From Candidatus Hydrogenedentota bacterium (lineage in GTDB: Bacteria; Hydrogenedentota; Hydrogenedentia; Hydrogenedentales; JAGMZX01), in assembly GCA_029556545.1 (NCBI GenBank), contig JAKQEQ010000011.1, forward strand, positions 1 through 53,369: a stretch of DNA of 53,369 nucleotides. The letters are read 5' to 3'. Within the stretch, counting starts at the first letter, position 1, and each line of letters starts with the position of its first letter. Of this stretch, positions 34,232 through 36,674 are shown one piece after another. Below the pieces are notes generated by a model that saw only the letters and a program-made list of their open reading frames with translations, was not told the origin of the DNA and did no database searches. The position numbers and the translations under genes are program-made.

Positions 34232-34624
34232 CTACTGCCCCAGGAGGTCGTCCAGGGCGGTGCGCGGGTCCTTTTTCGGCTTGGGCGCGCCGAAGAAGTC
34301 GCGGGCCGCCTGATCGGCGTCCGCGCGCTCGGCATCGTCGCCGAAGAGTTGCGCGAGCGTTTCGCGGGCCTGGTCCTGTTTCTCGGGCGCGGCGCCCTCC
34401 GCCGTCACGTCGGCGAAATCGAAGGCGTCGCAATAATTCATTCCTCGGCGGTCCGCCACCATGTCCGTTCCCGGCACGCGGCACTCGTTGTGGCGGGTTG
34501 CGTCATGATGCCGGCAGTTCAGGCAGCAATGCAGATAGGCCCTGCACTTCGGGCACGCCTCGGAGAAGCCGGGGCGCGTCTTCTCGCCGGGCCATTCCCA
34601 GCCGCACTTGTGACACCGTTTCAC
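34232..34624 (-). CDS. Small Cys-rich zinc-binding protein
   Basis: 130 aa. The first ~67 residues contain nine cysteines in knuckle-like pairs (CHKC at 4-7, CPKC near 24, CCLNC near 33, then C and YCDAF), followed by a charged Ala/Asp/Glu/Lys-rich tail without structure. Such single-gene Cys-rich proteins occur in several delta-proteobacterial and planctomycete-type genomes; no function is assigned. It is divergent from the SAM-hydroxide-adenosyltransferase gene with a 122-bp gap and separated from the response regulator by repeats. Confidence 0.65.
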   Translation of the reverse strand: MKRCHKCGWEWPGEKTRPGFSEACPKCRAYLHCCLNCRHHDATRHNECRVPGTDMVADRRGMNYCDAFDFADVTAEGAAPEKQDQARETLAQLFGDDAERADADQAARDFFGAPKPKKDPRTALDDLLGQ

Positions 34625-34746
34625 GGGACCGCCTCCTGATCGCGGCCTCAGCTTATGCGCCGCGCGAAGGGCCGTGCAAGTCCGCGCGATGCAGCGGGCG
34701 GCCGGGCCGTGTACAATTATGCCCTCGCATCGAAGGAGGCGTCCCT

Positions 34747-36009
34747 ATGCGGAGAACAACGGTGCCGGCGCTGCTGGCGCTTGCGACGGGCGTGATGGCG
34801 TTCGGCGCGCCGGTCGGGCGCGTCGTGCTATGCACGGACTACGGCGTGGATTCGGTCTACGTCGGGATTCTGAAAGGCGTGATCTACGACAAGTTCCCCG
34901 ACGCGCGGGTGGATTCGCTCACCAACGCCATCCCGCCGTTCGATATCGAGGCGGGCGCGCGCATCCTCGCGGAGGGCTGCGCCGTGTATCCGCCCGGCAC
35001 GGTCTTCTGCTGCGTCGTCGACCCCGGCGTCGGGACCAGTCGCAAGGGCGTCGTTCTCGAAACGGACACGGGACAGGTCTTTGTCGCGCCGGACAACGGC
35101 CTCCTGACGCTGGTCGCCGAGCGCGACGGCGTCCGTGCGCTGCACGAAATCGCGAACGCGGCGATCTGGCGCGAAGGCGCGCTTTCGAGCACGTTCCACG
35201 GACGCGACATCTTCGGCCCGGTGGCCGCGGCGATCGCGGCGGGGGCGGCCCTGTCCGAGGTCGGCCCGGCCATCGAGGAAATGGTCCGGCTCGACCTGCC
35301 GCGCCCGGTCATCACGGAGACCGAGGCGCGCGGGCGCGTCTTTCGCGTGGACGACTATGGCAACTGCGTCACCGATATTCCGGGCGAGGCGCTGGCGCGG
35401 GCGTTCGGCCTGCGGCACGGCGACCGGGTTTCCGTGACGATCGGCGGGGCGACGTTCGAGGCCCCGTTTGTCCGCACCTACGCCGATGTGCCGGAGGGCG
35501 AGCGGCTGGTGCTGGTCCAGAGCATGGGCTACGTCGAATGCGCGGTGAACCTCGGCAACCTTGCGCGGGACCTTGGCGAAAGCGCGCGCGCGCAGGTCGT
35601 CATCCGCGCGGTCGCATCCGAAAAAGGAGAGGCTGTCCCCATGGCCGGACAGGGAGAGGCGCTGATCGTCTTCCACCGCGGCGGCGGCATCGCGGGCGTG
35701 ATGGACCGCTTGACGATATCCGCCGCCGGCGCGTGCGAGTTGTCGCGCAAGATGAGTCGAGCCTTTTTCGGGTTGGAACAGGAAGAATTGCGCGAGATTA
35801 TCGCCATCCTCGATGCGGCGCGCCTCGATACGCTGCCCGAGGCGTCCCCCGCACCGCGCGGCGCGGATTTCTTCACCTACGAAGTGACTTATCGCGGCGT
35901 CACGCGGCGCTTCGTCGGCGGGGCCATACCCGAGACGGCCGCGCCCGCGCTCGGGCGGCTCAATCAACTCATCGACACGCGCGGGAAGCCCCCCGCGCGG
36001 GTCCCTTGA
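34747..36009 (+). CDS. Exported SAM hydroxide adenosyltransferase (DUF62) fused to an emfourin-like domain
   Basis: 420 aa, with AAGGAGG 7 nt before the ATG. Residues 1-22 look like a cleavable signal (VMAFGA). Residues about 24-290 are the DUF62/SAM hydrolase fold: LCTDYGVDSVYVGILKGVI, IPPFDIEAGARILAEG, VVDPGVGTSRKG (Asp and Arg of the catalytic triad), FHGRDIFGPVAA (His) and VDDYGNCVTDIP. It hydrolyses SAM to adenosine and methionine in known members, which are cytosolic. The C-terminal ~110 residues (VFHRGGGIAGVMDRLTIS, LDTLPEASPAPRGADFF, YEVTYRGVTRRF) resemble emfourin, the protealysin inhibitor family. An internal ribosome binding site precedes an in-frame ATG at 35641, exactly at the domain junction. 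Confidence 0.82.
   Translation: MRRTTVPALLALATGVMAFGAPVGRVVLCTDYGVDSVYVGILKGVIYDKFPDARVDSLTNAIPPFDIEAGARILAEGCAVYPPGTVFCCVVDPGVGTSRKGVVLETDTGQVFVAPDNGLLTLVAERDGVRALHEIANAAIWREGALSSTFHGRDIFGPVAAAIAAGAALSEVGPAIEEMVRLDLPRPVITETEARGRVFRVDDYGNCVTDIPGEALARAFGLRHGDRVSVTIGGATFEAPFVRTYADVPEGERLVLVQSMGYVECAVNLGNLARDLGESARAQVVIRAVASEKGEAVPMAGQGEALIVFHRGGGIAGVMDRLTISAAGACELSRKMSRAFFGLEQEELREIIAILDAARLDTLPEASPAPRGADFFTYEVTYRGVTRRFVGGAIPETAAPALGRLNQLIDTRGKPPARVP
35624..35643 (+). promoter_or_regulatory. Internal ribosome binding site and start at a domain junction
   Basis: AAGGAGAGG at 35624-35632 precedes an in-frame ATG at 35641 by 8 nt inside the DUF62-emfourin-like gene. Initiation here would give a free ~122-residue C-terminal domain. 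Confidence 0.45.
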
Positions 36010-36014
36010 TCCCC

Positions 36015-36674
36015 ATGCGCGTCGCATTGGAAGACATCTACCGGAGACTGCTGCGCCATTTCGGGCCGACCCACTGGTGGCCCGGCGATACGCCCTTCGA
36101 GATCGCCATCGGCGCGATCCTGACACAGAACACGGCGTGGTCGAACGTCGAGCGGGCCATCGCGAACCTGAAGCGGGAGCGGCTGCTGCGCCCAAGGGCG
36201 ATGCTGGCCTGTCCGCGCGACCGCCTCGAAGCGGCCATCCGCCCGTCCGGCTACTTCCGCCAGAAGGCCGAGCGCCTGCGCATCTTCTGCGACTACCTCA
36301 CGACGCGCTACGGCGGCAGCATGCGCCGCATGGCGCGCCGCCCGGTCGAGGTCCTGCGCGAAGAGTTGCTGGCGATCAAGGGTATCGGCCCCGAGACCGC
36401 GGACGATATCCTGCTCTACGCCTGCGAGAAGCCCGTCTTCGTCGTGGACGCCTACACGCGCCGCATACTGAGCCGCCACGGCCTCGTTTCGCCGAAAACC
36501 GGCTACGAGGAGTTGCGCGCCGTCTTCGAGACAAACCTGCCGCCGGAGGTCGCGCTTTTCAAGGAATATCACGGGTTGATCGTCTACGTCGGCAAGGATT
36601 TCTGCCGGAAGACGCCCCGCTGCGAGGGATGTCCGCTCGCCCCGATCCTGCCGCAAGGCGGCCCCCCCTTGTGA
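36015..36674 (+). CDS. Endonuclease-III-like HhH-GPD DNA glycosylase (COG2231 type)
   Basis: 219 aa, from the ATG 5 bp after the preceding stop. The HhH-GPD fold is shown by ILTQNTAWSNVERAI, the helix-hairpin-helix IKGIGPETADDILLYA and the catalytic Asp in VVDAYTRRI. In classical EndoIII the hairpin carries a lyase Lys (GRKTAN); here it is Glu, so the protein is probably a monofunctional glycosylase or has another role. The C-terminal iron-sulphur loop CRKTPRCEGCPLAP has three of the four usual Cys. It excises damaged bases in family members; substrate unknown. It probably shares a transcript with the DUF62 gene. Confidence 0.85.
   Translation: MRVALEDIYRRLLRHFGPTHWWPGDTPFEIAIGAILTQNTAWSNVERAIANLKRERLLRPRAMLACPRDRLEAAIRPSGYFRQKAERLRIFCDYLTTRYGGSMRRMARRPVEVLREELLAIKGIGPETADDILLYACEKPVFVVDAYTRRILSRHGLVSPKTGYEELRAVFETNLPPEVALFKEYHGLIVYVGKDFCRKTPRCEGCPLAPILPQGGPPL

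Follow-up and report, generated by a model that had tools for sequence, protein, structure and literature searches.

An emfourin-like domain at the C terminus of a predicted exported SAM_HAT (DUF62) enzyme in a lineage of Hydrogenedentota

A SAM_HAT enzyme with a C-terminal tail

The window, i.e., the whole 53,369-nucleotide stretch of Candidatus Hydrogenedentota DNA that was analyzed, is contig 52 of a 6.1-Mb genome (G000) in 195 contigs. It encodes a protein in which a predicted exported SAM_HAT (DUF62) enzyme is followed by an emfourin-like domain, hereafter the tail (Table 1). The open reading frame of the initial annotation is real: the ATG, a perfect Shine-Dalgarno sequence, the stop codon, and the 420-residue translation are all in place. 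The fusion is a new combination of known parts, conserved but narrow in distribution and restricted to one lineage.

Table 1. Features of the fusion gene and the next gene of its likely operon
Feature	Positions	Strand	Description	Basis
Fusion gene	34747..36009	+	420 aa; predicted exported SAM_HAT (DUF62) enzyme plus emfourin-like domain	Orthologue in G001 over nearly the whole length
Start codon	34747	+	ATG
Stop codon	36007-36009	+	TGA
Shine-Dalgarno sequence	34733..34739	+	AAGGAGG, 7 nt before the start codon	Sequence and start-site scan
Predicted signal peptide	34747..34809	+	Residues 1-21; cleavage near AFGA-PVG	N-terminal extension pattern in orthologues
SAM_HAT_N (PF01887)	34822..35265	+	Residues 26-173, with D31, D92, R99, and H151	Pfam, 9.4e-48
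SAM_HAT_C (PF20257)	35332..35592	+	Residues 196-282	Pfam, 1.1e-20
Variable linker	35614..35655	+	Residues 290-303; contains the proposed internal start	21% identity to G001
Emfourin-like domain (tail)	35656..35982	+	Residues 304-412; Pfam match 331-401	PF20242
HhH-GPD DNA glycosylase gene	36015..36674	+	Endonuclease III/3-methyladenine glycosylase-like; next gene of the likely operon	Pfam, 4.3e-18

The enzyme part is a complete DUF62 protein

The proposed DUF62 identity is borne out. Both Pfam domains are complete and score far above their cut-offs (PF01887, 162.1 bits against 26.3; PF20257, 74.2 bits against 25.5). In a PDB sequence comparison, the closest solved proteins are SAM_HAT enzymes, headed by 2zbu of Thermotoga maritima (9.2e-53). 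With 18 relatives as input, AlphaFold gave a model that aligns with 2zbu at a target TM-score of 0.94. The Asp-Arg-His site is present in VVDPGVGTSRKG and FHGRDIFG (D92, R99, and H151); among 30 aligned sequences, D92 and R99 are invariant and H151 is kept in at least 90%. The tail is not the ordinary DUF62 C terminus: SAM_HAT_C ends before residue 290, and because the normal C-terminal domain is complete there, the last 110 residues are additional. From the family and its site, we infer that the probable reaction is cleavage by water of SAM or of a SAM-like sulfonium nucleoside. The NCBIfam equivalogs for (R)-SAM hydrolase match below their cut-offs (NF058624, 173.5 versus 350 bits; NF053629, 134.1 versus 470 bits).

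Predicted exported SAM_HAT proteins are common

The N terminus of the fusion protein, MRRTTVPALLALATGVMAFGA-PVG, is hydrophobic. Similar extensions occur in 22 orthologues of the same clade (TDYGxDS type), with best 11-residue hydropathies of 2.2 to 3.65; counted from likely starts, the hydrophobic core is mostly preceded by at least one basic residue. Across these orthologues the character of the extension is kept and its sequence is not. Cytosolic-type paralogues in six genomes lack the extension, with at most 11 residues between the likely start and the TDFG motif. The window genome has a second SAM_HAT gene of this cytosolic type, a 264-codon frame with 44% identity and no signal peptide. 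The exported and cytosolic types split with full support on the phylogenetic tree, and catalytic residues are kept throughout the exported clade. Judged by this pattern, export of the fusion protein via an N-terminal signal peptide, as had been suggested from the window sequence, is well supported.

The initial annotation had called export strange for a DUF62 enzyme. The predicted export stands and the case for strangeness is weakened, since signal-peptide SAM_HAT proteins are common. They also occur outside Hydrogenedentota, in two genomes of another phylum, in Aeromonas, and in Escherichia coli. The E. coli and Aeromonas versions have textbook signal peptides (MKKTLATLFLLTCLGSSSAYA...), and 2393 of the 5426 complete E. 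coli genomes (44%) carry such a homologue. This homologue (L086:4001-4900, L087:4001-4891), with its clear signal peptide, would put a DUF62 enzyme in the extracytoplasmic space of a model organism. In the other phylum, the exported SAM_HAT proteins L097 and L096 (genomes G091 and G158) have lipobox-like N termini (LMIAGC and FLVLAC) and are probably membrane-anchored lipoproteins. A limited literature search found no paper on the export of DUF62 proteins.

The fusion is conserved but narrowly distributed

Whether the fusion is conserved had been raised as a check; we found it in a second species and in a more distant relative. The congener G001 has the whole fusion, with 67% identity over residues 7 to 415. 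In G005, which belongs to another family, a related tail sits at the same place, scoring 20.4 bits with an HMM of the G000 and G001 tails, whereas the best of 2000 shuffles of the G005 tail reached 6.7; Pfam gives no hit for it. In the comparison of G000 with G001, dN is 0.36 and dS 1.25 for the tail (dN/dS, about 0.28), and dN is 0.17 and dS 0.90 for the enzyme part. Purifying selection acts on both domains; the linker, with 21% identity over residues 290 to 303, is free. The tail evolves faster than the enzyme (56% versus 76% identity).

Searches of 68 Hydrogenedentota genomes with the family model and with the tail found the domain only as this C-terminal tail, in G000, G001, and G005, and none of the 68 has it as a separate gene. 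About 20 exported orthologues in the order lack the tail: they stop right after SAM_HAT_C and lie in the same operon. Plasmids, phages, and viral contigs yielded no relative of it. Among the emfourins found in other phyla, all stand alone, and the fusion itself was not found in the two very small other phyla in which it was sought directly.

In G007, the orthologue carries, at the position of the tail and with a similar length, a C-terminal extension of 122 residues (L011 794-1159, minus strand) that has no Pfam match. As a candidate emfourin-like domain it scored 1.9 bits with the HMM, below shuffles, and was not counted; one tail profile run on the 68 genomes included this extension, so that its G007 match is by construction. 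The extension is possibly a second, independent one. The tree omits G005, whose gene is broken across contigs. In it, G000 and G001 group together as a clade, and G007 lies next to that clade. Since this placement of G007 is weak (support, 83/77), a single gain of the tail and repeated gains cannot be told apart.

The tail is a distant relative of protease-linked emfourins

Emfourin inhibits protealysin and thermolysin, binds 1:1 at the active-site region, and is encoded in the operon of the protease (PMC9505478). The window tail matches the Emfourin family (PF20242) at 1.5e-4 in the whole protein and at 7.3e-6 when residues 299 to 420 are searched alone; its score of 26.7 bits falls just short of the Pfam gathering cut-off of 27. 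The G001 tail alone scores 40.8 bits (3e-10), above the cut-off. By sequence score, membership in the broad Pfam family would thus be good for the G001 tail and borderline for the window tail. The description of the last ~110 residues as emfourin-like holds in this broad sense; to the protease-linked emfourins, the tail is only distantly related.

Emfourins from other genomes and plasmids mostly adjoin M4 protease genes. With a six-emfourin profile, of whose members at least five are M4-linked, the tail scored no better than shuffles, and a four-emfourin profile likewise did not set it apart from them; a profile of these emfourins matched the solved emfourin 6zyg (5.7e-6). hhalign of the tail against four emfourins of another phylum gave probabilities of 33 to 56%, and no emfourin came up when the PDB was searched with the tail profile. 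A low-confidence structure model of the tail, predicted from a single sequence with no alignment depth, has a pLDDT of 65 and the order beta-beta-beta-alpha-beta-beta-alpha; 6zyg is not among its best 50 PDB matches. The M4-linked emfourin L104 has the motif TGGFAGL and the G001 tail has RSGGFAGL. The L104 motif bridges classical emfourins and the SGGFAGL-type fused domain.

The neighboring HhH-GPD gene is conserved

Only 5 bp separate the fusion stop codon from the HhH-GPD gene, whose best NCBIfam match is PRK13913, a 3-methyladenine glycosylase model (3.6e-33, below cut-off). An HhH-GPD gene directly follows the exported SAM_HAT gene in 21 of the 23 orthologous loci with readable downstream DNA (e.g., L061-L075). 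SAM methylates DNA by itself, yielding 3-methyladenine, and a SAM-removing enzyme beside an HhH-GPD glycosylase is therefore suggestive. This pairing may bear on DUF62 function and may be more telling about it than the tail; a straightforward shared task with the glycosylase sits poorly with a hydrolase that is exported. In several of these Hydrogenedentota loci, a radical SAM/SPASM gene lies further on. On the other side of the fusion gene, the minus strand of the window (34232-34624) encodes a small cysteine-rich putative zinc-ribbon protein with no Pfam match; this gene also adjoins the fusion gene in G001 (L063:10425-10814).

Possible partners and roles of the tail

Three M4 proteases of the window genome exceed the Pfam cut-off (L058, L059, and L060). 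Their genes lie on contigs other than that of the fusion, so the tail is not a stand-alone protein beside an M4 gene: it is fused to SAM_HAT, and the next gene is HhH-GPD. By eye, all three M4 frames have signal-like N-terminal segments; these proteases would therefore meet the exported protein in the same compartment, which makes protease binding by the tail possible. In the one that was scanned, an FTP propeptide and both M4 domains are accompanied by a T9SS-associated domain. The three proteases are long, and the T9SS-associated domain found in one of them is galactose-binding-like; this lineage may possess type IX-like secretion. M4 proteases occur in 47 of the 68 genomes of the phylum, most of which lack the tail. 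M4 presence thus does not track the tail, and their co-occurrence says little. G005 has the tail and no M4 hit in a genome that is 63% complete.

Our best explanation, to which as a whole we give an even chance, is that an exported SAM_HAT enzyme gained a C-terminal emfourin-family domain just upstream of the next operon gene. The fusion would be made as one polypeptide and sent out of the cytoplasm by its N-terminal signal peptide, and the enzyme would hydrolyze SAM or a SAM-like sulfonium nucleoside via the Asp-Arg-His site of the family. The tail would most likely be a protein-binding module in the same compartment as the enzyme. Its likeliest partner, by our guess, is a thermolysin-type (M4) protease that the same cell secretes; through this contact the enzyme would be spared cleavage or be held next to the protease. 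Such an enzyme would need an extracytoplasmic source of SAM, which counts against this explanation. We regard as unlikely the more specific proposal that an exported SAM-hydrolyzing enzyme shields itself with a fused inhibitor of the secreted thermolysin-like proteases of the cell, which would be the first link between DUF62 and emfourin. The analysis demonstrates the fusion with its conservation and selection, the enzyme family, and the catalytic residues, and sequence patterns support export well; substrate, partner, and purpose, inhibition included, are tentative.

Two alternatives concern the gene itself. The fusion would be an artifact of assembly or annotation if a sequencing error had joined two neighboring genes; the genome is in 195 contigs, its relatives are labeled metagenome-assembled, and the position of the tail is one that a small gene of its own could have occupied. 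This is highly improbable, because an independent genome, G001, has the same in-frame fusion, selection acts on both of its domains, the gene that follows is the same, and a third genome, G005, has the fusion as well; its presence in a second species effectively refutes the artifact. The gene could also yield two products, the exported full-length enzyme and a free cytosolic emfourin-like inhibitor started at codon 299. The elements proposed for such an internal start exist as described: AAGGAGAGG at 35624-35632 shortly precedes an in-frame ATG at 35641, at the domain junction. G001 reads CCGGGCCGGACGCCCGTTGCGGGC there, with no ATG or GTG and no Shine-Dalgarno sequence, and the linker is unconserved. 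In addition, an in-frame ATG preceded by AGGAG or GGAGG arises at least once in 24.8% of synonymous-codon shuffles of the fusion gene, so the site is not beyond chance. Without a signal peptide, moreover, a free product would not reach secreted proteases. Thus, two products are very unlikely, and we reject the internal start with high confidence.

The other alternatives accept the fusion and read its parts differently. The true substrate of the exported enzyme could be another adenosyl compound, or the enzyme could be halogenase-like, with the tail aiding retention outside the cytoplasm. SAM is chiefly a cytosolic metabolite, the (R)-SAM hydrolase models match below their cut-offs, and the view that StDUF62 serves physiologically to hydrolyze (R,S)-SAM is called into doubt in a 2025 study (PMC12120602); we nevertheless consider this reading unlikely, given the conserved Asp-Arg-His residues of SAM hydrolases and a top PDB match, 2zbu, that is not a halogenase. 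A stronger competitor, which we rate as a real possibility though the less probable one, is that the emfourin-fold module forming the tail does not inhibit proteases, either through loss or because it never did, and serves stability, oligomer contacts, or binding to another envelope protein, while the enzyme does the work, as in the ~20 tail-less orthologues. It would fit the ending of these orthologues right after SAM_HAT_C in the same operon, the faster divergence of the tail, its distance from M4-linked emfourins, and the missing Pfam hit in G005. It fits less well with the G001 tail, which clearly passes the Pfam emfourin cut-off, and with the existence of an M4-linked emfourin that has the GGFAGL motif.

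The physiological role of DUF62 enzymes is not settled. That many of them form a predicted exported branch implies that part of the family acts outside the cytoplasm, which the proposed (R)-SAM clearance inside cells does not cover. A protease-inhibitor-like domain on a DUF62 enzyme gives experiments a way to ask where the enzyme works and what endangers it, and would add a fused module to the small stand-alone inhibitors of the emfourin family.

Comparison with known systems

The fusion protein shares two complete domains and the Asp-Arg-His site with the SAM hydroxide adenosyltransferases/(R)-SAM hydrolases (2zbu; Pyrococcus PH0463; Salinispora StDUF62), and its modelled core is 39% identical to 2zbu. 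Solved DUF62 members have ~255 to 285 residues; the fusion protein differs by its signal peptide and a C-terminal extension of ~130 residues. With emfourin (PF20242) of Serratia proteamaculans, the protealysin-associated inhibitor of protealysin and thermolysin (PDB 6zyg), the tail shares a Pfam family match that is borderline in the window protein, a GG motif, a GAD-x-F/Y-T-Y strand, and the final helix. Emfourins are small stand-alone proteins beside an M4 protease, whereas the tail is fused to an exported enzyme; compared with the M4-linked emfourins, it lacks the FxPGLxRP hairpin and has ~15 extra residues. Further close parallels are the tail-less exported SAM_HAT proteins of ~20 Hydrogenedentota genomes, E. 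coli, and Aeromonas, which combine a signal peptide with a SAM_HAT enzyme. The E. coli and Aeromonas proteins, annotated as SAM hydrolase/SAM-dependent halogenase family proteins, differ in having no emfourin-like domain, and the tail-less Hydrogenedentota orthologues share with the fusion the operon with the HhH-GPD gene.
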